This document shows, one piece after another, positions 4,018 to 45,742 of a stretch of DNA of 48,353 bases (position 1 is its first letter; each line of letters opens with the position of its first letter). The notes beneath the pieces were generated by a model. It saw only the letters and a program-made list of their open reading frames with translations, was not told the DNA's origin and ran no database searches. Origin of the DNA: an uncultured Mycoplasmatales bacterium (GTDB lineage Bacteria; Bacillota_I; Bacilli_A; UBA3375); the NCBI GenBank assembly GCA_937936465.1, contig CALDDH010000007.1, positions 1-48,353 of the forward strand, written 5' to 3'. A program made the position numbers and the translations under genes.

Positions 4018-4308
4018 TTATCCATTGATTGAACTTGCCAATTCTTGATCCATTTCTTCGAAATTATCTGCTGTTTCATCTAATGCTTCACCAACTGAAT
4101 CTAAAAACTCAGCTGCAGACTCTAAATCTGATTTAGTATCTTCGTATTTATCTAAAAATGCTTGTGCTGTTTGTCCTTCAAATCCATTATCAACTAATGA
4201 GTTTAGAATTTCTTCACCATTTGAAATTATTTCTCTTAAATCTTCTGATTCAGAACGCATTTCTCCAGCTTTCTCTCTTAATTCTTCAAAATCAACATTT
4301 ACTGCCAT
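4018..4308 (-). CDS. esxA: WXG100 family secreted protein EsxA with FEG in place of WXG
   Basis: A 96-residue, almost fully helical protein of exactly WXG100 size. Two helices flank a turn at residues 40-46; there the family's Trp-x-Gly is Phe43-Glu44-Gly45. Near the C-terminus Phe83-x3-Asp87 takes the place of the usual Tyr-x3-Asp/Glu export signal. EsxA-type proteins are exported as dimers by T7SS and are also needed for the machine to function. It is the first gene of a minus-strand run esxA-esaA-essA, the standard T7SSb order, with a strong ribosome site (GGGAGGTG) and its own extended -10 promoter. Both aromatic signature positions are Phe, a conservative but uncommon change. No other WXG100 gene is in the window. 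Confidence 0.88.
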   Translation of the reverse strand: MAVNVDFEELREKAGEMRSESEDLREIISNGEEILNSLVDNGFEGQTAQAFLDKYEDTKSDLESAAEFLDSVGEALDETADNFEEMDQELASSING

Positions 4309-6599: not shown

Positions 6600-7341
6600 A
6601 TAATTCCTCGGTATAATTCTTTTTAATTAAATAATAGGATGTGTATAAAGTCAATAGTAACATTGACATATTAATTATTAATCCTTGGATTGTTTTAGCC
6701 CAATTATAATAATATATATTTAGTGCAAAAATAACAAGTAAAATAATTGCTAGCGATAAGAAGACTGTAATAAAATAATTTTTCAAATGAACTTCACCAA
6801 GTTTATAAAAGCGATCAATGTTAATTAAATATTCTTGAGAATCATTTGTTGCAAATTCGAAAATTTTAATTGCTGTATTATCAATATTAGATTGTTTTTT
6901 AACAACTAAAATATTACTTAAGACATCATTTAAAATTGGTTTATGTTGATATTTTTTTTTTAGCTTTAAAAATTCTGTCTCATAATCATATGATACTTTA
7001 ATATTTTCTAAACTTTTTCTAATATCTTTTTCAAATTGACCGAATAAAAATGGGATTGTCTTCTCTAAAGAGTCAATCATATTGAAGTCATTTGTCATTG
7101 ATGTAATCGCAATATTTTTAATGAAAACATTAATTTGAAAATCTAATGTTTGCATATTACTCCTAATTTGTTTTAATCTTAAATAGTAGTCATATATTAA
7201 AATACTTAAAATACTAATTACTAATGCACAAATAATATTAAATAGTATTAAAAAACTAATGAATAAAAAGATTAAGAAAAAAAAGATATTTTTAATTATT
7301 AAACTAAGTAACTTTTTTATTTTCTTGATTAAATATTTCAT
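6592..7341 (-). CDS. TadB-like membrane protein (T2SF family, divergent)
   Basis: A 249-residue membrane protein: two N-terminal helices (about 15-55), a cytoplasmic alpha-helical domain (about 60-180) and two C-terminal helices (about 187-240). This is the topology of TadB/GspF platform proteins that couple the ATPase to pilus assembly or secretion. The gene overlaps both neighbours (ATPase by 38 bases, TadC-like by 8), indicating tight coupling. A run of ten A bases in the coding strand near 6951-6960 encodes Lys residues. The sequence is too divergent to name with certainty. Confidence 0.62.
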   Translation of the reverse strand: MKYLIKKIKKLLSLIIKNIFFFLIFLFISFLILFNIICALVISILSILIYDYYLRLKQIRSNMQTLDFQINVFIKNIAITSMTNDFNMIDSLEKTIPFLFGQFEKDIRKSLENIKVSYDYETEFLKLKKKYQHKPILNDVLSNILVVKKQSNIDNTAIKIFEFATNDSQEYLINIDRFYKLGEVHLKNYFITVFLSLAIILLVIFALNIYYYNWAKTIQGLIINMSMLLLTLYTSYYLIKKNYTEELYE

Positions 7342-8449
7342 GAATTAAATACTTCTCCTCCTTTATATTCATTTGATACTCGACAACTTCTTTAATGCTT
7401 CTAATAATATTTCCATCTTGATCAAAAGTTGATATTAAATGCACACCAATATCTAAAACAGAATATATATTTTTCAAAATAGTTTGTTCATTTAAATTAA
7501 CTTTTCTTTCTGTACACATGTTCAGTAGTCTAATGGGAATATCATAAGCGCTATTAGAGTGTAAAGTAGTAATAATATTATGTCCTGTTGTTGCTGCATT
7601 TAACATATCAAATGCTTCACTCCCTCTTGATTCTGATATAATAAGCCACTCTGGATTATATCTTAAAGCTGGTTTAATAAGTGCACTAAAATCAACTTTT
7701 AAACTGGAATAATTCTCCCCCTTTGTTATCCATGTATAAATATCTTTTTGTGGATATAATTGATTTAATTTAAGTTCATTATTATCACTAATTAAGACTA
7801 TTTTATCTAAATCATTAATATGACCAATTAAATATTTTTGTAATTCACTTTTACCACTTCCTGTTACTCCGCTAATTATTACATTTTTTTGCTTAATCAT
7901 TGCATCCTCTAAGTATTCTCTAATTGCATCTGATCCAGGAAAATTATCTTTTGTAATCACATTATAAGATTTAATGACTCTAATTGCAAAACTTCTACCA
8001 ACAGGAGATAAACTTTCATGGATAGCATTAATTCTCAGTGTTTCATATTCAACATCTAAAATTGGATTGACAATATTAAATTGTTTTTGTGCTAGTAATG
8101 CAATTTTCTCAATTACGACATAAGCTTCTTGCTTACTAAACCCTTTGGGGTAAAGATATCTACCTTTAACATTTGATTGTAACCATAAATCAATCCCATT
8201 AAATGAAATATCAGTAATTTGCTCGTCTTGTAATATTTCATCTATAACTCCCAATCCAAAAAGTTCATTATAAATCATTTGTGTAAAATTTTGAGTGTCC
8301 AAGCCATAGTCTGATGTGCTTAAATATTCACAAATTGATTCTTTAATTATTATTTTTGAATTATCATTATCATAAATTTGTTTTAATTCTTTTTGATTAT
8401 TTTCTTTTAAATATTCATTTATATTAATTTTAATATCTTCATAGTTCAT
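7304..8449 (-). CDS. tadA: TadA/CpaF-type secretion ATPase
   Basis: A 381-residue ATPase of the type II/IV secretion superfamily, CpaF/TadA branch. The N-terminal domain has EILQDEQITDISFNG (family E-I-M-V-N-G region). The Walker A is GVTGSGKS at 194-201, the Walker B region reads WLIISESRGSEAF and is followed by a TTLHSN motif (His box). It hexamerises at the inner membrane and powers Flp-type pilus assembly or secretion. It is preceded by the pseudopilin-like genes and followed by TadB/TadC-like proteins. The length is a little short for the family, mainly at the N-terminus. Confidence 0.9.
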   Translation of the reverse strand: MNYEDIKININEYLKENNQKELKQIYDNDNSKIIIKESICEYLSTSDYGLDTQNFTQMIYNELFGLGVIDEILQDEQITDISFNGIDLWLQSNVKGRYLYPKGFSKQEAYVVIEKIALLAQKQFNIVNPILDVEYETLRINAIHESLSPVGRSFAIRVIKSYNVITKDNFPGSDAIREYLEDAMIKQKNVIISGVTGSGKSELQKYLIGHINDLDKIVLISDNNELKLNQLYPQKDIYTWITKGENYSSLKVDFSALIKPALRYNPEWLIISESRGSEAFDMLNAATTGHNIITTLHSNSAYDIPIRLLNMCTERKVNLNEQTILKNIYSVLDIGVHLISTFDQDGNIIRSIKEVVEYQMNIKEEKYLIHEIFNQENKKVT

Positions 8450-36731: not shown

Positions 36732-37730
36732 TTGAAAAAAATTATTATAGTTATAGTTAGTTTGATTTTTATCTATTTATTATATAATTCTCACATTATA
36801 ACCGAGCAATTAAATTACTATTATTTTGATACACCAATTGAAATATCAATTACTGATCAAAAAAAGAATTTAAAGGATATTGATCAGATAGATAGTGATA
36901 TCCAAGCTATCCTGTCACCACTTCATCAAATGTTTGACTATAATAATCCTGATAGTTTGATCAATCAAGTTAATCAAAATAAGACAACACAAATCAATCA
37001 GGACTTTTACAATGTTCTTGCTCCAAGCATTGATGCTTGCAAACAGTCTAATGAATTATATGATCCAACAATTGGTGCAGTAAGCTATATTTGGAAAGAA
37101 GATGACAATATACCTCCTGATACTAGCCTTATTAATAATAATTTACAATATATTGACTGTCAAAAAATCGAGTTAACAAAAGACACAATAACTAAACCAG
37201 AAAATGTACAAATAGATGTCAACTCTGCTGTTAAAGGGTATGCAACTGATCAAATTACAACTTACTTAAGAGATCAAAACTTAGTTAATTCAACAATTAA
37301 TATGGGTGGAAATGTTGCTGTGTTAGATTCACCTGATGATGATTTATATACAGTTGGAATTGAATCTCCAGAAAGAAATAATAATCAACCTGTTGCATCA
37401 CTTACTATTGAAAATAATTCAGTAGTAACAACCGGACCTTATGAACGAGGATATACATACCAAGATACTTATTATCATCACCTATTAAATACAACAACCG
37501 GACAACCTGAAAATAATGACTTAGCAAGCGTGACAATTATTACAGAATCATCTTTAGAAGCGGATATAATTGCTACAACATGCTACCTTGCCGGCCTTAG
37601 TCTTGCACAAACAATAGTTAATGAGCTTGATAATACAGAAGCCATATTTATCACAAATGATAAAGAAATATATTCAACTGATACTTCAATTAATTTAAAT
37701 GTCTTAGATGACAGATATACATTAGTTTAA
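36732..37730 (+). CDS. apbE: FAD:protein FMN transferase ApbE
   Basis: A 332-residue flavin transferase. A TTG start follows AAAGGAGCAG. It has one N-terminal membrane helix (about 3-20) with no lipobox Cys, so it is anchored with the enzyme outside. Family motifs are VNSAVKGYATDQI (flavin/Mg site), INMGGNVAVLD and VVTTGPYERGY, and near the end EADIIATTCYLAG. It attaches FMN through a phosphoester to the Thr of SGAT motifs. The convergent rnf-like operon encodes an RnfG with exactly such a motif, its likely substrate. Confidence 0.93.
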   Translation: MKKIIIVIVSLIFIYLLYNSHIITEQLNYYYFDTPIEISITDQKKNLKDIDQIDSDIQAILSPLHQMFDYNNPDSLINQVNQNKTTQINQDFYNVLAPSIDACKQSNELYDPTIGAVSYIWKEDDNIPPDTSLINNNLQYIDCQKIELTKDTITKPENVQIDVNSAVKGYATDQITTYLRDQNLVNSTINMGGNVAVLDSPDDDLYTVGIESPERNNNQPVASLTIENNSVVTTGPYERGYTYQDTYYHHLLNTTTGQPENNDLASVTIITESSLEADIIATTCYLAGLSLAQTIVNELDNTEAIFITNDKEIYSTDTSINLNVLDDRYTLV

Positions 37731-37741
37731 TAGTACTTGAA

Positions 37742-37777
37742 ATTAAAAAAGACAAATCATTTATTTGATTTGTCTTT
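37742..37777. terminator. terminator between apbE and the rnf-like operon
   Basis: A perfect 12-bp stem (37748-37759 with 37766-37777, 6-base loop). On minus it is followed by six U, directly after the rnfB stop, so it ends the electron-transfer operon. On plus it serves apbE, with a T-rich tract further on. Confidence 0.88.
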
Positions 37778-37789
37778 CAAAATTATTTT

Positions 37790-38083
37790 TTACTCAGGAT
37801 GCAATAGCTCATCTAATTTAACTGCTATTTCTTCTCTTCGCTCTGGTTTACAAGGTTTACAATCTGAGACCTTTTTATTACCAGCTATTAGTTCTCCTGC
37901 TAATGCTTCACAACCAGGAGTACCACATGCACCACAATTAAAGTGTGGTAACATTTCAAAAATTTGTTGGATTCTTACATCTGGAGCAACATATAAGATT
38001 TTGGATGAAATTCCAATTATAACACCTAAAACAATTGCTACTAATCCACATATCATTGTTGCAATAATAATTGATTCAATCAT
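37790..38083 (-). CDS. rnfB: truncated RnfB (membrane helix plus first Fe-S domain only)
   Basis: A 97-residue protein with one N-terminal helix (about 5-25) and the RnfB-specific Fe-S domain: FNCGACGTPGCEALAGE with Cys50, Cys53, Cys58 and later Cys75 (SDCKPC). Normal RnfB proteins (180-330 residues) continue with one or more ferredoxin 2x[4Fe-4S] domains; here a genuine TAA and a terminator follow at once. No frameshifted continuation is seen, because the next 50 bases hold only the terminator. Likely role: electron carrier subunit of a reduced Rnf-like complex, last gene of its operon. The ribosome site is GGAGG. Confidence 0.87.
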   Translation of the reverse strand: MIESIIIATMICGLVAIVLGVIIGISSKILYVAPDVRIQQIFEMLPHFNCGACGTPGCEALAGELIAGNKKVSDCKPCKPERREEIAVKLDELLHPE

Positions 38084-38274
38084 TAGTTTTCCTCCTTTTT
38101 ATCTCCAGGGTGAATTGGACAAGTTGTTTGTTCACAACTTTGACAACTTCCAATAAATCCCTTTATTTCAAAATTCTCAGGTTTCTTTGTTTTTTTATTA
38201 ATAAATATTGTTAGTGTGAAAAAAATAAATAAACTTATTACTAGTAGAATACCTACTATAATTGAACTCATCAT
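38083..38274 (-). CDS. small triple-Cys membrane protein, NqrM-like
   Basis: A 63-residue protein with one N-terminal helix (about 4-26) and a cytoplasmic tail with FIGSCQSCEQTTCPIHPG (Cys44, Cys47, Cys52). It lies between rnfA and rnfB, overlapping rnfB by one base. The layout (N-terminal helix, then a GSC motif and clustered Cys at the end) resembles NqrM (DUF539), the factor that supplies iron to the Cys centre shared by NqrD and NqrE. RnfE and RnfA are homologues of those, so a maturation role fits. The resemblance is by eye only; a novel Fe-S or metal subunit is the alternative. Confidence 0.55.
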   Translation of the reverse strand: MMSSIIVGILLVISLFIFFTLTIFINKKTKKPENFEIKGFIGSCQSCEQTTCPIHPGDKKEEN

Positions 38275-38284
38275 TCCTCCATTT

Positions 38285-38857
38285 TCAAATAAACCCTGTC
38301 ATAATAAGTGACATAATTCCTGCCGTAATTAATGCAATTGGAACTCCACGTAAAGCACGAGGCAATTGAGCTTTGTCTAAATGATCTCTAATATATGCAA
38401 ATATATAAATAATAAAAGTATATCCAAATGCTGTTGCCATACTGAAAACAAGCATGTGTGAGAAATCATATCCATTATCAATGTTTAATAGAGCAACACC
38501 TAAAACAGCACAGTTAGTTGTAATCAAAGGCAGATAAATACCTAATGATTTATATAAAATTGGTGATACTTTCTTAATAAACATCTCAACTATTTGAACT
38601 AAAGCTGAAACAATTAAAATAAAGACGATTGTTCTTAAATACGTTAAATCGTAAGGTACTAAAACAAGGTTATACACTAACCATGTTACCACAGATGATA
38701 CTGTTATGACAAATAAAACGCTTAATCCCATTCCAAGTGCCGACTCTTCTTTGTTACTTACTCCAAAGAATGAACAAAGCCCTAAAAACTGTGTTAATAT
38801 AATATTTTGAACTAAGAAAGCATTAATAGCAAAAGCAATTAGTGTTGTATTATCCAT
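38285..38857 (-). CDS. rnfA: RnfA/NqrE family membrane subunit
   Basis: A 190-residue protein with six membrane helices. The Cys ligands of the intramembrane Fe centre are present at LGLCSFFGVS (Cys28) and TTNCAVLG (Cys116). RnfA pairs with RnfE in inverted topology and carries electrons across the membrane in the Rnf and Nqr ion pumps. The length is normal. It abuts rnfE with a one-base overlap. Confidence 0.94.
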   Translation of the reverse strand: MDNTTLIAFAINAFLVQNIILTQFLGLCSFFGVSNKEESALGMGLSVLFVITVSSVVTWLVYNLVLVPYDLTYLRTIVFILIVSALVQIVEMFIKKVSPILYKSLGIYLPLITTNCAVLGVALLNIDNGYDFSHMLVFSMATAFGYTFIIYIFAYIRDHLDKAQLPRALRGVPIALITAGIMSLIMTGFI

Positions 38858-39510
38858 TATGCTCTCCTCTTCTTAGCTTTTTTAGCTTGTTTCATTCTTA
38901 AATCACTGATAATCCATGCAAGGATCCCGAACGCTAAAAATGCACCTGTACTTTGAACAAATAATTCCATACTATTCTCTGAGCTAAATATTTGAATATT
39001 AAGCATTGCAATTCCACCAGTTCCCAAAATCTCACGAAATGTAGCTAGTAGGATTAAACTAAGTGAAAATGCAATTCCAACTGTAATACCATCAAATAAA
39101 GAATCCTTTACTTTGTTTTGTGAAGCAAAGCTTTCAGCTCTTCCTAAAATAATACAGTTAACAACTATAAGTGGTAGAAATATTCCAAGACTTGTATATA
39201 AATTTGGCATATATGTTTCCATTACCATTTCTAATACTGTTACAAGTGTTGCAATGATCGTAATGTATACTGGAATTCTAATTTCATCTGGAACCCACCT
39301 ACTAATACTTGATACTAAAACGTTAGACATTGCTAAAACAAATATAACACTAATTCCCATTCCAATTGCATTAGCTACATTGTTTGTAACTCCAAGTGTT
39401 GGACATAGTGCTAAAAACGTTACAAAAGTTGGATTTTCATCTATAACCGCTGTCTTAAGCATTTTATTAAATTTTCTTTTATCTCTTTTAAGTGTTCTTT
39501 TAAAACCCAT
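38857..39510 (-). CDS. rnfE: RnfE/NqrD family membrane subunit
   Basis: A 217-residue protein with six membrane helices and an N-terminal basic stretch. The Fe-ligand Cys are at ALCPTLGVTN (Cys36) and VVNCIILGRAES (Cys119), as in RnfE/NqrD. It forms the pseudo-symmetric partner of RnfA. The C-terminus is basic (KKAKKRRA). One-base overlaps with rnfG and rnfA place it inside the operon. Confidence 0.94.
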   Translation of the reverse strand: MGFKRTLKRDKRKFNKMLKTAVIDENPTFVTFLALCPTLGVTNNVANAIGMGISVIFVLAMSNVLVSSISRWVPDEIRIPVYITIIATLVTVLEMVMETYMPNLYTSLGIFLPLIVVNCIILGRAESFASQNKVKDSLFDGITVGIAFSLSLILLATFREILGTGGIAMLNIQIFSSENSMELFVQSTGAFLAFGILAWIISDLRMKQAKKAKKRRA

Positions 39511-40058
39511 TATGCCTCCCTGTAATTTTCATTAAAATCAAGTGCTGATGCTTCGACACTTTTCTTGACAGCTGTTGAACTATATGTTGCTCCTGATACT
39601 AAATCAATATTCACTTCATCGGTACCTTTAGAAACAAATTGACTCATAAAAGGATCTTTAGTTACAACATCTCCAATTCCTGGTGTCTCTCCAAAGTTAA
39701 TATATTCAATTCCATCTATAACCCCTGGATTTGATATGCCAATTACAGAAACAACTTCTCCATTTTTACCAATATATGATGTCTTATATGCATACGCTAA
39801 ATCATCATTACTTAAAGTAACTTCATAAACTTCTTTAATCGGCTCATCATCTGCAAGCTCACGATCTAATTTATTTACAGCTTGATTATCTGGGTATATA
39901 ATATCTATACTATTGGATACTGCTGCTATTTCTCTTTCTTGTAAAATTGGCGTTGTAATTTCAAAAACAACTGTAACAATTGTGACACATATAACTACAA
40001 TTAAAAATAATAAACTACTAAATTTAAAAATATTCTTAAACATTCTCAGACACCTCAC
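39510..40058 (-). CDS. rnfG: RnfG, covalent FMN-binding subunit
   Basis: A 182-residue protein with one N-terminal helix (about 12-33) and an extracellular FMN_bind domain. It has ETPGIGDVV and the flavinylation motif VSGATYSS, with the acceptor Thr at position 158. ApbE (encoded convergently) would attach FMN there. The length is slightly short for RnfG. The start overlaps rnfD by 23 bases. Confidence 0.93.
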   Translation of the reverse strand: MRCLRMFKNIFKFSSLLFLIVVICVTIVTVVFEITTPILQEREIAAVSNSIDIIYPDNQAVNKLDRELADDEPIKEVYEVTLSNDDLAYAYKTSYIGKNGEVVSVIGISNPGVIDGIEYINFGETPGIGDVVTKDPFMSQFVSKGTDEVNIDLVSGATYSSTAVKKSVEASALDFNENYREA

Positions 40059-41145
40059 TTGATTCAGATTCTAAGATAAGCGTGTATTGATGTTGAATAA
40101 AGTAACTACTTCCTAAAATAAAGATAATTAAAATTGAGATAGAAATTATTTTTCCTTTATTCCAAACATCTGTTGATTTTTTATTAATTATTGGTGTTAA
40201 CATGTTTGCAAATAATATTGCAAATAATATTCCAACGATTGATGTTGATAAAATGCGTATAAACATTGTAACTACAGCAATCAAGACTCCATATATTACT
40301 TTACCATAATTACCTCTTGGCGACGTAACCGGATCAACTGCTAAAAAGAAGATTGCAAATACTGTTGCTCCTAAAGTCATGTTATATACAACATATGTAA
40401 AACTTGCCCCTTGAAAATTACTCATAATTAATGATATTACCATAATTGTAATCATAGTTGTTAACGGAATAATGTATGAACAATACTTTTTAACTAACAG
40501 ATAAATTCCAAGTGGTAATAAAATAATTATTGGAATTGCCCCAAGCATATTTGTCACATCATTTGTAAATAAGACATTTACTGATCCAGATACATCAAAA
40601 TCCTTTAATAAATAAGCATTTGATAAAGTATCTTCTGGTACATTAAAAGCAGATGTTAAGATGTAATCAATTAAATTACTTGCAAGTAATGTTGAAGTCA
40701 TATATACTGGCCAAGCGGCTGCCATAAAAATACGACCAACAATAGCTGCATTAAATATATTGAAAGTTAATCCACCAAATGCATTTCTAACAATAAAAAC
40801 ACTAAAGAAAACAGTAATAATAACACCAAAAATCGGTACACCAATTGGTGATAAAAGAGCAATTAATAAACCGGTTATTTCAGGTCTTGTTTCACTGATT
40901 GCAATTTTTGCACTTGCTCGATCTGCATTTTTTTGATGTGAAAAGAAAAGAATTTCTGCTTCACGTGAACTAATTACTGCCGTGATCATAATTAATAATG
41001 CTTTAATAAAGAATGCCATCGAAATTGTTAAGTTTATAAATAATGATACAATACAAATTAATAATAATATATACCAAAATACCTTCATAGCTTGATCATA
41101 ATTTGGATTTGTCTTTGTAAAATCTTTATTTCTTCTTATAGTCAT
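40036..41145 (-). CDS. rnfD: RnfD/NqrB-like subunit without the SGAT flavin site
   Basis: A 369-residue protein with about ten membrane helices. RnfD signatures are visible: GGLTFNIFNAAIVGRIF, and LAVDPVTSPRGNYGKVIYG. Where the family carries the FMN-attachment motif (SGATP), this protein reads DVSGSVNVLF (Ser186-Gly-Ser-Val189), so the acceptor Thr is missing. The GEtS block that normally follows is also changed. It is the first rnf gene here, with a strong ribosome site (GGAGGTAG), four bases after cydB. RnfC, which usually precedes RnfD, is absent. Confidence 0.9.
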   Translation of the reverse strand: MTIRRNKDFTKTNPNYDQAMKVFWYILLLICIVSLFINLTISMAFFIKALLIMITAVISSREAEILFFSHQKNADRASAKIAISETRPEITGLLIALLSPIGVPIFGVIITVFFSVFIVRNAFGGLTFNIFNAAIVGRIFMAAAWPVYMTSTLLASNLIDYILTSAFNVPEDTLSNAYLLKDFDVSGSVNVLFTNDVTNMLGAIPIIILLPLGIYLLVKKYCSYIIPLTTMITIMVISLIMSNFQGASFTYVVYNMTLGATVFAIFFLAVDPVTSPRGNYGKVIYGVLIAVVTMFIRILSTSIVGILFAILFANMLTPIINKKSTDVWNKGKIISISILIIFILGSSYFIQHQYTLILESESSEVSENV

Positions 41146-41149
41146 ATTT

Positions 41150-42163
41150 CTACCTCCAAAACTTTATGTATTTATATGTTTGATATGTTAAAACAATTGG
41201 TAAAAAAATTAAAATTACAATAAATAAAAATAATAATGTTTTTTCACCTGATGATGCTTCATTAATTAAGATTCCATTACTTACGCTTTCTGTACTACGA
41301 ATGATATATGGAAACATTGCTGTGTAACCTGTGAAAATAAATGAAAATACACCTATAATAAATGAAATAAATGAAAGCAAATTCTTTTCCAACCAAATAA
41401 ACATAGAACCAAATAAATAACCTAATATCATTAATAGAGGTAATATATAATAAATATAATTATTTTGATATAAACCATTAGGTAAATTAAAAATTTCATA
41501 TGTATTATTAAAAGATAAAATAATAACAACACTTAATAATATTGTAAATAAACTTGTTATTTTTGCAACTTTTTTAATTTCAGTAAAGCTATCGGTTGTA
41601 TATAGATTTAAAAATAAATATCCAAATATAACTCCACTACATAAGAAAAATAACAAACCAATAAATGCTAAGGAATTAAATATAAATAGGAAAGAACCAA
41701 AAGTGTCATTCATATGACCATCAACTATTGGTAATCCAATAAAATAATTAATAAAATATATACCTAATACACTTAGAAGTAAAACACTACCTATTGACCA
41801 CATCCACTTCATAATATTTTGAATTTTAATATTATCAGTTTTATAAATTAATTCAATTGCTGTACCTCTTAAAATAATTGCAGTTAAAAGTAAATAAAAT
41901 GGAATATATAATGATGATAATAATGTCCCATATGCTAGTGGAAAGGCCGCAAACAATCCACCAATAGCTAAAATAATCCAAACTTCTATTCCATCCCAGT
42001 GTGTTCCTACAGCTTTATTAATTAATTGATGTTTTTCTTTATTCTTTAAATATTTAAGTGATAAAATTCCGGCCCCAGTTACAAATAACTCTTGACATAA
42101 ATAAATCGCCCATACTAATGCCAAAAGAAAAAACCAAATATTACTTAAAAGTTCATATGACAT
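41150..42163 (-). CDS. cydB: cytochrome bd oxidase subunit II
   Basis: A 337-residue protein with eight or nine membrane helices. CydB blocks are THWDGIEVWIILAIGG and FAAFPLAYG, and LRGTAIELIYK. Several usual residues differ: the GFDxG loop reads LFVTGAG, WDGNE is WDGIE, and the Arg after RG-x-A-x-E is replaced. It forms the heterodimer with CydA and completes the quinol oxidase. Stop-start overlap with cydA and a four-base gap to rnfD place both in the same transcript. cydDC, the usual assembly transporter, is not nearby. Confidence 0.9.
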   Translation of the reverse strand: MSYELLSNIWFFLLALVWAIYLCQELFVTGAGILSLKYLKNKEKHQLINKAVGTHWDGIEVWIILAIGGLFAAFPLAYGTLLSSLYIPFYLLLTAIILRGTAIELIYKTDNIKIQNIMKWMWSIGSVLLLSVLGIYFINYFIGLPIVDGHMNDTFGSFLFIFNSLAFIGLLFFLCSGVIFGYLFLNLYTTDSFTEIKKVAKITSLFTILLSVVIILSFNNTYEIFNLPNGLYQNNYIYYILPLLMILGYLFGSMFIWLEKNLLSFISFIIGVFSFIFTGYTAMFPYIIRSTESVSNGILINEASSGEKTLLFLFIVILIFLPIVLTYQTYKYIKFWR

Positions 42164-43371
42164 TATTTATCCTCCATTTTTTTTATATACTTATATTTAT
42201 AGTCAATTGTTGTCATATCTTTATCAACTTGTAATTTTCCAAAATAAATTGATATTATAAATAGTATTGCATACAATATTCCTACCAATATCAATGAAAA
42301 AACTACTTGAGATGTTGGAAATTGACTAACTCCATCTGATGTTTTCATCAGACCATACACTATCCATGGTTGTCGTCCAAGTTCAGCAACATACCAACCT
42401 GCAACAGATGCAATATATGGTAAAATAAATATCCATAAGTAAATTTTTTGTAAAGTTCTACTCTCCATGTAACGATTGAAAAATATTATTGTATATAAAC
42501 TAAGTAATATAAATAATGTTCCTAACCCAACCATTATAAAAAATGCAATACGTACAGCCATCCCAAGATCACTACCCTCAAGTACACCAGTTGATATAGC
42601 ATCTGTTTTTGTTGGCTGTACTTGTGCTACATAACCATAGTATAAGTTACCAACTATTGGCATTAACAAACTAAATACTAATGCAACTTTTGCTGCAATT
42701 TTCGTTAAAGTTTTAAACATAATTCTTTCTTCATCATTAGTGCTTTTTTTCAATAATTTATAAGCAGAAATTGATAAAGTGAAAAAAGCCCCAACTAAAT
42801 AAGCAGATGTTACAGTATGTAGTAACATAAAAAACATATATGGATTGAAAATTACTTCCCAAAAATTATCAAGTAGCAGTCTAGTACCATCATCTGCAAG
42901 AACATATCCAACAGGATGCTGCATAAAAGAATTTGCTGTAATAATCCATAATGCAGATAGACTCGTTCCAATTGTAATTAAAGAAATTGTTACTAATCTA
43001 AATTTAGGACTAATATCATATCGCCTGAAAAAATAGATACCTGCAAAAGTTGATTCTAAAAAGAAAGCTAATAATGCCTCAAGTGCTAAAGGTGCCCCAA
43101 ATACACTACCTATATAATTTGAAAATTCAGACCAATTTGCTCCAATCTGAACAGTAAGTGTTATCCCCGTAACTATACCAATTGCATAACTAACTAAAAA
43201 TATATTACCTAAATAATCTGTAATTTTACGATATTTATCATCTTTTGTTCTATAGTGTAAAATTTCAGTAATTAACATCATCAAAATTAAACCAATTGAT
43301 AATGGTACAAATATATAATGAAAAGTAATTGTAAATGCAAATTGTATTCTACTAAGTATTTCTAAAGTCAT
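42163..43371 (-). CDS. cydA: cytochrome bd oxidase subunit I
   Basis: A 402-residue quinol oxidase subunit, short for CydA (usually 440-520). Haem-site residues are visible: His18 (ITFHYIFVPLS), Glu98 and Glu106 (LALEALLAFFLEST), His185 (FMLLHTVTSAYL), Met280 (FFIMVGLG) and the quinol-site motif GWYVAELGRQPW. The Q-loop is atypical: QPTK is followed by TDAIS, lacking the Met after QP and the Glu five residues past Lys; the Arg normally two residues before the Met ligand is Phe. It reduces O2 to water with quinol at high affinity. It starts the cydAB-rnf part after a 56-base gap with a palindrome. Confidence 0.93.
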   Translation of the reverse strand: MTLEILSRIQFAFTITFHYIFVPLSIGLILMMLITEILHYRTKDDKYRKITDYLGNIFLVSYAIGIVTGITLTVQIGANWSEFSNYIGSVFGAPLALEALLAFFLESTFAGIYFFRRYDISPKFRLVTISLITIGTSLSALWIITANSFMQHPVGYVLADDGTRLLLDNFWEVIFNPYMFFMLLHTVTSAYLVGAFFTLSISAYKLLKKSTNDEERIMFKTLTKIAAKVALVFSLLMPIVGNLYYGYVAQVQPTKTDAISTGVLEGSDLGMAVRIAFFIMVGLGTLFILLSLYTIIFFNRYMESRTLQKIYLWIFILPYIASVAGWYVAELGRQPWIVYGLMKTSDGVSQFPTSQVVFSLILVGILYAILFIISIYFGKLQVDKDMTTIDYKYKYIKKMEDK

Positions 43372-43390
43372 TTTTCTCCTATATAATTTT

Positions 43391-43402
43391 TGTTTTAAAA
43401 CA
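43391..43402. promoter_or_regulatory. 12-bp palindrome TGTTTTAAAACA upstream of cydA
   Basis: A perfect palindrome lies 20 bases before the cydA ATG, between the ribosome site and the upstream gene. It could be an operator for a redox regulator, or an internal promoter element; it does not match the known Rex or FNR sites fully. Confidence 0.35.
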
Positions 43403-43427
43403 TTTCTTACCCAATACTAATATTTTA

Positions 43428-44048
43428 CTACAAAAAAGAGAAAAAATATAGTATTATTACAAATAAATAGATAATTTCTATGACATTAATAATTTCTATT
43501 CTATCTTTTTTTTTTTTTAAAAGATAATTTATTTCTAAGAATTCATAAATATAATCATTTTTTAATTTAAGTAAGAGTTTTAATAGATTTTTTATTTCAC
43601 TCATTTTTTTTGAATAAATTGAAAAATAATATTTAATGAAACTTTTAATGCTTGTAATTAAAGTTGATAAAATCATTAATTTTTCATATCTAGACTCACT
43701 TGAAAAGGAAATAGCTAATATTAAATCATCCCTTTGATATTTACTTGTAATGATAAGTGAATTAATAACTACAATGAAATATTTTAAAAGATAAAACAAT
43801 GATATATTTAAAGCAACTTGAAGATCTTGCTCAACAAATAGCTTTAAAATAAATGTTGAGATAAATAAACCTATAGCAACCGGCAATACAAAAATAAAAT
43901 ATTTAAACTTATATTTATTTATTATTATTTTAATAATTGTTAATACTATTAATAATTTAATTAGTAATGGGTTTCCAATTATAATAATTAAGAAAATAAT
44001 TATTAAATTAATAAATGATAAGTAGATATTTCTATTCATAATTCTCAC
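43428..44048 (-). CDS. EcfT-like polytopic membrane protein (divergent)
   Basis: A 206-residue membrane protein with about five helices (around 8-25, 28-44, 50-70, 82-100, 187-205) and a long cytoplasmic helical stretch (about 105-180). The layout resembles the EcfT/CbiQ transmembrane subunit of energy-coupling-factor transporters, but the Ala-Arg-Gly coupling motifs are not found. It overlaps the upstream degenerate EcfA-like gene by 17 bases. A run of 13 A (coding strand) near codon 178 encodes Lys residues and could slip. Identification as EcfT-like is tentative. Confidence 0.5.
   Translation of the reverse strand: MRIMNRNIYLSFINLIIIFLIIIIGNPLLIKLLIVLTIIKIIINKYKFKYFIFVLPVAIGLFISTFILKLFVEQDLQVALNISLFYLLKYFIVVINSLIITSKYQRDDLILAISFSSESRYEKLMILSTLITSIKSFIKYYFSIYSKKMSEIKNLLKLLLKLKNDYIYEFLEINYLLKKKKDRIEIINVIEIIYLFVIILYFFSFL
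43506..43518. repeat. 13-base homopolymer in a coding region
   Basis: Thirteen T on plus (A on the coding strand) within the EcfT-like gene. Replication or transcription slippage here would shift the frame and remove the last membrane helix. Confidence 0.9.
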
Positions 44049-44604
44049 TTACAATAATCTGATTTTTATATTTACTCAGTTCAATTATTTGGTCATTAGT
44101 TAAGATTTCTAAAACATCTAGCAGATAAACTTTCTTTACCTTAATAATCTCAATTAACTCGGTAAATCCTAATGCTAAAAATTTATATTTATCAATTAGA
44201 TAATAATCTGCTTTTAAATTCAATTCAGCTTTTGAAAAACCTAACTGTGCAATTTTCAAACTACTCATACCAACTATGATTTTTAGGCACTGATAATCTT
44301 CTTCTCGCATTTTTCTATTTGCCCCATCAATTATAATAACTTTTTTAGATTTATCAATAAGATCATTACCGAAAAAATTATTATAAATGGAAATGTATTT
44401 AATTTCAGATAAAAAAGATTCATAATTATGATCATCTAAAATCAAATTACCGATCCTAATCTGACCTTGGTAATCATTTTGCAAAGTTAAAAGATGTGGT
44501 TTAATTAATTCAAATATTTCCTTATCGATATAAGCATCTTGCTTAATATTAATATCCAAGCAAATACTAGATATATATTTATTAAAATTTAAGCTCATCT
44601 TCAC
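44032..44604 (-). CDS. degenerate EcfA-like (ABC ATPase-derived) protein
   Basis: A 190-residue soluble protein. Its pattern follows a shortened ABC ATPase: an initial strand pair, then QGQIRIGNLIL (the G-x-I-x-I-x-G element after Walker A), KKVIIIDGANRK in a Walker-B-like place, and ADYYLIDKYKFLALG, which matches the end of EcfA proteins (AD-x-I-x-V-x-x-G-x-I-x-x-x-G). The Walker A glycine/lysine loop, the LSGGQ signature and the H-loop His are missing, so it cannot be an active ATPase of that type. It is encoded between the Gx transporter and the EcfT-like gene, overlapping both. The assignment is by eye and uncertain. Confidence 0.5.
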   Translation of the reverse strand: MKMSLNFNKYISSICLDINIKQDAYIDKEIFELIKPHLLTLQNDYQGQIRIGNLILDDHNYESFLSEIKYISIYNNFFGNDLIDKSKKVIIIDGANRKMREEDYQCLKIIVGMSSLKIAQLGFSKAELNLKADYYLIDKYKFLALGFTELIEIIKVKKVYLLDVLEILTNDQIIELSKYKNQIIVSENYE

Positions 44605-45097
44605 CCCTTATTTTTTCATATAAAAACGCGATTATAAAGCCACTTAAAGTTCCAGTAATTATGACTACTGGAATATAGTAGAAATAAATAAGATCATTGA
44701 AATATATGCATGCAAAAAAGATTTGGAATATATTATGTGATATTGCTCCAGCCATCGATATAACATAAATAGATAGATATTGTTTAAAGTACTTAACTAA
44801 AAGATACATAACTGTTATAGAGCTGAACCCACCAAATAAAGCAAAGAAAATAGTTGAAAAAGTTCCAAACATTATATTTATGCCAATTATTCGATATGCT
44901 TGAAGTTGGATTAAATATAAATAACTTTTATCAAATATTATTAATAAGAAAAGGATATTTGATAAGCCGATTTTAAACCCTGGAATTATTACTGGAAAAA
45001 AAACTCTTTCAATCGCTGATAACATCATTAAGCCAGCTAAAATAAAAATAAAATCCATGTAAGAGTTATATTTATTTAACCTTATATTCCTATACAT
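44582..45097 (-). CDS. Gx transporter family membrane protein (EetB-like)
   Basis: About 171 residues, five to six membrane helices. Typical blocks are LMMLSAIERVFFPVIIPGFKIGLSNI and FGGFSSITVMY, and AGAISHN, as in PF07456 proteins (once called heptaprenyl diphosphate synthase component I; EetB in the Listeria electron-transfer locus). They look like substrate-binding (S) units of ECF transporters. The GTG at 45109 gives four more residues, but the ATG at 45097 has AGGTGAG at good distance and is preferred. It overlaps the NusG_II gene slightly, a common pairing. Confidence 0.85.
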   Translation of the reverse strand: MYRNIRLNKYNSYMDFIFILAGLMMLSAIERVFFPVIIPGFKIGLSNILFLLIIFDKSYLYLIQLQAYRIIGINIMFGTFSTIFFALFGGFSSITVMYLLVKYFKQYLSIYVISMAGAISHNIFQIFFACIYFNDLIYFYYIPVVIITGTLSGFIIAFLYEKIRGEDELKF

Positions 45098-45545
45098 ATT
45101 CACTCTCACCTGTTATTTTAACCATTAGATGGTGTGGAACACAACTAATATTTTGATAACTATTTGTAATGCTACCAACTTCCACACATATTTTATTTTG
45201 ACAGTTAGCCTCATACATAGTAACCATTTTATTTTCAAGGACTAACATATTAAATTGCAAATCATTATCTAGTTGGTCATAAGGAATTTGATCAGGATCG
45301 CTTAGATCTTGATATTCGATATTCAAATCAAAATAGTCAACTATTTCTTGATCTTCTAGGACAATAAATTCTTCTTGATCTTGAACAACCCAAACAATCA
45401 TTTGCTGATCAGTTAACTTATGGTTATATATTAAATCATTGTCAATATATACTTCAACATTTTCTTGGTCAATAAGTGAGTATGAATTTAAAATAAAAAT
45501 TGCAATAACTACCATTATAATGGCAAAAAATATTCCTTGCTTCAT
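45090..45545 (-). CDS. NusG domain II-containing membrane-anchored protein (EetA-like)
   Basis: A 151-residue protein with an N-terminal helix (about 5-24) and an extracellular NusG_II (PF07009/DUF1312) domain. The conserved end reads EANCQNKICVEVG, then NISCVPHHLMVKI, with the C-x5-C and C-x-P-H pattern. The family is regularly encoded next to the Gx transporter, and in Listeria-type extracellular electron transfer loci the pair is called EetA/EetB. It is the first gene of the whole run to rnfB, with its own extended -10 promoter and AGGAGAG ribosome site. Confidence 0.85.
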   Translation of the reverse strand: MKQGIFFAIIMVVIAIFILNSYSLIDQENVEVYIDNDLIYNHKLTDQQMIVWVVQDQEEFIVLEDQEIVDYFDLNIEYQDLSDPDQIPYDQLDNDLQFNMLVLENKMVTMYEANCQNKICVEVGSITNSYQNISCVPHHLMVKITGESEYV

Positions 45546-45696: not shown

Positions 45697-45727
45697 ACAA
45701 AAAAGACTGTGATATTTTCACAATCTC
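45697..45727 (-). terminator. terminator after the GntR gene
   Basis: A 9-bp stem with one wobble (45704-45712 with 45718-45726), followed on minus by a U-rich tract. The rest of 45546-45742 is AT-rich with no gene seen. Confidence 0.8.
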
Positions 45728-45742
45728 TTTTGGCAATATAAA

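Follow-up and report, generated by a model that had tools for sequence, protein, structure and literature searches.

The Rnf complex (RnfABCDGE; C. tetanomorphum structures 7zc6 and 9eri) is a ferredoxin:NAD+ (nicotinamide adenine dinucleotide) oxidoreductase, in which electrons pass from RnfB through the [2Fe-2S] site of RnfA/RnfE to the flavin mononucleotide (FMN) of RnfG outside, then inward via RnfD and on to RnfC and NAD+ (PMC12174285). In the cytochrome bd quinol oxidases (qOR; E. coli 6rko/7ose, M. smegmatis qOR-2 9r2g) the residues Lys252, Glu257 and Glu280 of CydA hold the Q-loop in the quinone-bound form (PMC13189123). It is generally assumed that bd oxidases depend on quinol and that Rnf depends on NAD. 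Here we describe an operon in a stretch of 48,353 bases (the window), which is the entire contig C7 of a 987-kb genome (G000, completeness 87%) from a relative of the wall-less bacteria. The operon joins an Rnf core to a bd oxidase, each without exactly the parts that serve these substrates, and the pairing recurs in related genomes. That the Rnf core and the bd oxidase function together is well supported by the recurrence of their linkage across genomes. Whether the operon forms one respiratory unit, 'Rnf-bd', in which electrons would run from RnfB through RnfA/RnfE and the RnfG FMN to heme b558 of CydA and then to O2, with no NAD or quinone, we consider evenly balanced.

Three further kinds of described system come close to this arrangement. 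NQR/RNF-like flavinylated systems are also partial Rnf/Nqr assemblies with one-way electron flow to an outer flavin, but they consist of two proteins, an RnfD-NqrF fusion plus RnfG (PMC8238504), whereas the entry in the window would be RnfB/A/E and the sink the bd oxidase. The OR-N and OR-C families (Murali 2021, cited in PMC13189123) are bd-type oxidases that do not belong to the group with a defining quinol site in CydA; the window CydA may resemble them, and its closest sequence matches among those listed are ordinary Q-loop CydAs. In 'Ca. Izimaplasma', which belongs to the same organism group, two Rnf complexes and a cytochrome bd have been listed (PMC6256511, PMC7761423). The same genes are there treated as separate with an assumed quinone pool (PMC6256511, PMC8397711), and in Xianfuyuplasma coldseepsis zrk13 complex I and cytochrome bd are assumed to share such a pool (PMC8397711). 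A literature search, which did not cover Skennerton 2016 and Murali 2021, returned no report that treats Rnf and cytochrome bd as parts of a single system. It is this pairing which is new, and it suggests a short respiratory chain to O2 that has not been described before.

The operon spans positions 45545 to 37790 (minus strand) and has the order eetA, eetB, two unnamed open reading frames (ORFs), cydA, cydB, rnfD, rnfG, rnfE, rnfA, a gene for a 63-amino-acid triple-Cys protein and a short rnfB. Neighbouring genes are spaced between a 23-nt overlap and a 56-nt gap, and apbE lies convergent to the run on the plus strand. A preliminary description, made from the DNA letters, had reported one single-strand run of named genes with tiny gaps or overlaps facing apbE, which the Pfam and NCBIfam matches and the measured spacing bear out.

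CydA of the window type was found in 7 of 395 genomes of the class (6 of 247 above the Pfam cut-off in a smaller set of related class genomes). In six of these seven, cydAB and rnfDGEAB share a single run: the window genome, G002 (L055), G012 (L059), G047 (L057; the cultured X. coldseepsis zrk13), G074 (L056) and G248 (L150). The seventh, G031 (L151), has cydAB unlinked to Rnf. The order cydA-cydB-rnfD-G-E-A-B without rnfC is present in five of the six linked sets (window, G012, G047, G074, G248), and it is found in single- or two-contig genomes, G012 being one contig. Additional separate Rnf sets with their own rnfC are located elsewhere in G012, G047 and G074, and the loss of rnfC is therefore specific to the cyd-linked copy. 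In a tree of RnfD+E+A the six cyd-linked sets form one clade (ultrafast bootstrap, UFBoot, 93) apart from the rnfC-bearing sets, even those within the same genomes, and the window joins the G012/G047/G074/G248 group (UFBoot 91). Scanning genome contigs for CydA gave at least 80 ordinary Q-loop CydAs, and none among the matches listed lies beside Rnf. In a phylum-wide scan for RnfD, all genomes among the matches listed come from the same class.

The sixth linked set, in G002, is arranged differently. Its run starts with rnfD-G-E-A-B and continues with NuoE/NuoF-like, [FeFe]-hydrogenase-like, RnfC-like and ferric-reductase-like proteins, cydA and cydB. The RnfC-like protein is without the Complex1_51K NADH/FMN domain, which would fit an intermediate toward rnfC loss. 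Within L055:8449-15020 this protein is accompanied by two [FeFe]-hydrogenase-like, one NuoF-like and one NuoE-like protein, and a hydrogenase-Rnf-bd assembly is possible.

The preliminary description had suggested that an Rnf core without RnfC and a bd oxidase are tied together in a distinct system for membrane electron transfer, and this is supported: the cydAB-rnfDGEAB run is also present in five further class genomes, and no rnfC was found in the window genome. It had named a second complete Rnf set in the same genome, or a neighbourhood not conserved in relatives, as findings that would speak against it; we looked for both and found neither.

Compared with the Rnf complex, the window keeps the RnfA/E/G/D membrane core. 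It comprises rnfD (40036..41145; PF03116, 180 bits), rnfG (39510..40058; PF04205), rnfE (38857..39510; TIGR01948) and rnfA (38285..38857; TIGR01943), all on the minus strand. A motif check found both [2Fe-2S] cysteine motifs in RnfA and in RnfE (C28/C116 and C36/C119), and in an alignment the SGAT-type flavinylation motif of RnfG is retained in all six Rnf-bd sets. RnfD, which has one copy only in the window genome, carries Tyr at the flavinylated Thr position (DTLSNAYLL), and the G047 protein carries Asn. As these are the only two clear cases, loss of RnfD flavinylation was rejected as a general feature and is side evidence. The short rnfB (37790..38083, minus strand; PF04060 and alignment) encodes 97 amino acids with a membrane anchor and one [4Fe-4S] FeS domain; the 2[4Fe-4S] ferredoxin domain is not present. 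Beyond these changes, the window differs from the Rnf complex in sharing its operon with cydAB and in having no RnfC. The window genome was examined one protein family at a time using profile searches, and Complex1_51K (PF01512) has no match anywhere in it. A weak RnfC_N (PF13375) match on C24 was rejected as RnfC, since it is below the cut-off and within a 1315-amino-acid frame read as RNA polymerase beta. Thus rnfC is likely, though at 87% completeness not certainly, absent, in line with the preliminary description. No nqrF-like gene is in the operon; the genome was not searched for PF00175.

The oxidase was compared with the qOR enzymes in the same way. The fold of CydA/CydB, the heme ligands and the GRQPW motif are shared. 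However, the Pfam match to the window CydA (42163..43371, minus strand, 402 amino acids; PF01654) is split in two and leaves out the Q-loop positions. The spacer from QPxK to GRQPW measures 73-80 residues in six class CydAs vs approximately 130-150 in the best 80 other CydAs from genome contigs, all of which are at least 420 amino acids long. The seventh class CydA (G248) is likewise short with 389 amino acids. In a predicted structure, built from 6 sequences and of modest confidence (predicted local distance difference test, pLDDT, 70), a 7-residue turn takes the place of the Q-loop and the bd subunit fold is kept (template modelling score, TM, approximately 0.8). Alignments to PDB entries show that the window CydA retains the ligands of heme b558, b595 and d (H18, H185, M280), GRQPW and equivalents of the Glu99/Glu107 pair. 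The three ligands match His19, His186 and Met393 of E. coli CydA, which we take to be the heme ligands there. The equivalent of Lys252 is retained, and that of Glu257 is replaced by Ser, Val, Thr, Gln, Thr and Thr in the six Rnf-linked CydAs; G031 keeps it. The second subunit, cydB, follows at 41150..42163 on the minus strand (PF02322, 196 bits).

A possible further difference lies in quinone supply. To our knowledge, every known quinone route needs a UbiA-family prenyltransferase. No match to this family was found in the five Rnf-bd genomes searched (the 87%-complete window genome, G002, G012, G047, G074), while it is present in 14 of 14 control genomes and in G031. The preliminary description had named a quinol pool as a possible partner of the Rnf core; this idea appears weakened, given the missing UbiA match in the genome and the missing Q-loop in CydA.

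We tentatively propose, with a confidence somewhat short of even, a quinone- and NAD-independent chain in which the RnfB-A/E-G half-circuit docks on a Q-loop-less bd oxidase and the outer-face flavin passes electrons directly to heme b558. A cytosolic low-potential carrier, such as a ferredoxin-like protein, would reduce the short RnfB at its [4Fe-4S] cluster. Electrons would then cross the membrane through the [2Fe-2S] site of RnfA/RnfE and reach the FMN bound covalently to RnfG at the outer face, the return route via RnfD and RnfC to NAD+ would not be taken, and O2 would be reduced in CydA. EetAB and ApbE would provide RnfG with its flavin and attach it. We propose the step from RnfG to CydA, whether direct or assisted by RnfD, because the exit of Rnf (RnfC) and the quinol entry of the bd oxidase are both missing, and the RnfG FMN and heme b558 are both on the outer face. 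Such a ferredoxin:O2 oxidoreductase may also pump ions. We infer the order in which electrons flow, their direct transfer between proteins, their donor and any pumping of Na+/H+. There is a real chance that these known families, in their new arrangement, form a new kind of respiratory chain. If true, this would mean that such a chain can be built in a new way, and it would revise the quinone pool assumed for X. coldseepsis zrk13 (PMC8397711). As zrk13 is cultured, the idea is directly testable.

Several observations weigh against a chain of this kind. The G031 CydA is also without the Q-loop, though UbiA, a polyprenyl synthase and an Ndh2-like protein are all encoded in G031, and the CydA tree places this CydA next to that of the window. 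Loss of the Q-loop alone does not therefore imply loss of quinol use. RnfD is kept everywhere, and Thr/Ser is still at its flavin position in G074, G012, G248 and G002. A ferric-reductase/MsrQ-like protein is found upstream of cydA in all five relatives (Pfam-tested in three), and the window is without it. The donor is uncertain, because pyruvate:ferredoxin oxidoreductase has no match in the window genome (it is present in the other Rnf-bd genomes and in G001 of the same family) and the only ferredoxin-like gene found there is a small ORF with a single cluster motif (C16:11876-12097, L186; 76-86 amino acids). Finally, quinones could be scavenged.

On that last point, it is unlikely, but worth keeping in mind, that an NQR-like RnfD reduces scavenged quinone and that CydAB oxidises the quinol despite the absent Q-loop, giving a ferredoxin:quinone:O2 chain. 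Scavenging of quinones is known in some Firmicutes with CydAB, the pairing of a Q-loop-less CydA with UbiA, Ndh2 and polyprenyl synthase in G031 is consistent with it, and the window RnfD aligns to NqrB. However, the match begins at NqrB residue 161, so that the N-terminal part, which forms the quinone pocket (PMC12174285), is unmatched. The lack of UbiA matches in the five Rnf-bd genomes and the loss of the Glu257 equivalent in Rnf-linked CydAs only also argue against quinone use. We regard as improbable a further explanation, namely an ordinary ferredoxin:NAD+ oxidoreductase whose RnfC is borrowed or missing from the assembly, co-transcribed with an independent bd oxidase for O2 removal. The incompleteness of the window genome and the rnfC in the other sets of G012, G047 and G074 would allow this. 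Against it stand the identical rnfC-less order in single- or two-contig genomes, the separate clade of the cyd-linked sets, the RnfD Thr lost in the window and G047, and the near absence of cydA from the class except beside Rnf.

The preliminary description had instead read the locus as an RnfADEG(B) core passing electrons to an extracellular flavin, as in extracellular electron transfer (EET), coupled to the bd oxidase. The presence of eetA, eetB and apbE speaks for this, but we find it very hard to maintain. EetB is a subunit for export of flavin adenine dinucleotide (FAD) that feeds ApbE, and 572 Clostridia genomes have it together with Rnf. EetB and ApbE generally provide Rnf-type proteins with flavin, and EET was not impaired when eetA was deleted (PMC9973259). 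Of the Listeria-type EET features, the window has the EetB/ApbE flavin supply, and UbiA for a demethylmenaquinone (DMK) route is absent. Furthermore, in the relatives no eetAB was observed next to the cyd-linked sets. The eetAB and apbE genes of the window are better explained as flavin supply and attachment for Rnf than as parts of EET.

Much of the remaining locus is ordinary for the class. An NqrB/RnfD-family gene is present in 163 of the 247 related genomes, and the usual order in the sampled loci is rnfC-rnfD-rnfG-rnfE-rnfA-(triple-Cys)-short rnfB, which apbE, eetA and eetB often accompany. An RnfB of approximately 90-120 amino acids without the ferredoxin domain is the usual class form, rnfC-bearing sets included, and the short RnfB was rejected as a novelty. 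The short RnfB and eetAB/apbE alone are therefore no sign of a new system or of EET. A small membrane-anchored protein with the motif C-x2-C-x(4-6)-C is likewise usual in the class: of 17 checkable rnfC-bearing sets, 13 have it between rnfA and rnfB. It was found in L040, L041, L042, L044, L047-L051, L054, L057, L058 and L061 with strictly conserved cysteines, and has no Pfam or NCBIfam entry. The window copy (38083..38274, minus strand; 63 amino acids, C-x2-C-x4-C by motif check and alignment) has no counterpart in the cyd-linked sets of the relatives. The protein may be an unrecognised Rnf subunit.

Upstream of cydA, on the same strand, are eetA-like (45090..45545; NusG domain II, membrane-anchored; PF07009, 63 bits) and eetB-like (44582..45109; PF07456, 98 bits), the latter an energy-coupling factor S component (Gx transporter/Hpre_diP_synt_I) and probably the substrate subunit of a FAD exporter, judging from the function of its family (PMC9973259). 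Two ORFs follow at 44032..44604 and 43428..44048, also on the minus strand, with no Pfam family match even at E=1. The preliminary description had named them EcfA-like and EcfT-like. Its assignments of NusG_II, Gx, cydA, cydB, rnfD/G/E/A/B and apbE stand; these two names are plausible only, as neither ORF matches a Pfam or NCBIfam family and the first has no Walker A. The second, hydrophobic and 206 amino acids long, was rejected as the window version of the MsrQ-like protein of the relatives, since it contains no histidine. That MsrQ-like membrane protein has 208-217 amino acids (L059:7439-8065, L150:2392-3018, L055:7786-8439), exceeds the PF01794 cut-off only in L055, and is a candidate heme relay.

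At the end of the run a terminator-like hairpin (37747..37778, minus strand; 13 pairs and a T tail) follows rnfB and agrees with the terminator noted earlier. It is not the only one: a second terminator-like hairpin before eetA (45698..45732, minus strand; consensus match only) would end the preceding transcription unit. The convergent apbE, encoding FAD:protein FMN transferase, occupies 36732..37730 on the plus strand (PF02424, 208 bits).

Additionally, in G031 the genes for UbiA, an Ndh2/DoxX-like protein and a polyprenyl synthase are together at L151:58-5218, on the contig with the unlinked, Q-loop-less cydAB. The closest CydA outside the class among the matches listed is in L063, a contig labelled Chryseobacterium sp. 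ISL-80; this CydA has the short Q-loop that one would expect in other groups, and the label may be wrong. Elsewhere in the window, a WXG100 protein (4018-4308) and a type II/IV secretion ATPase with small membrane proteins adjacent (7304-8449) are possibly ESX-type secretion and pilus-like genes.

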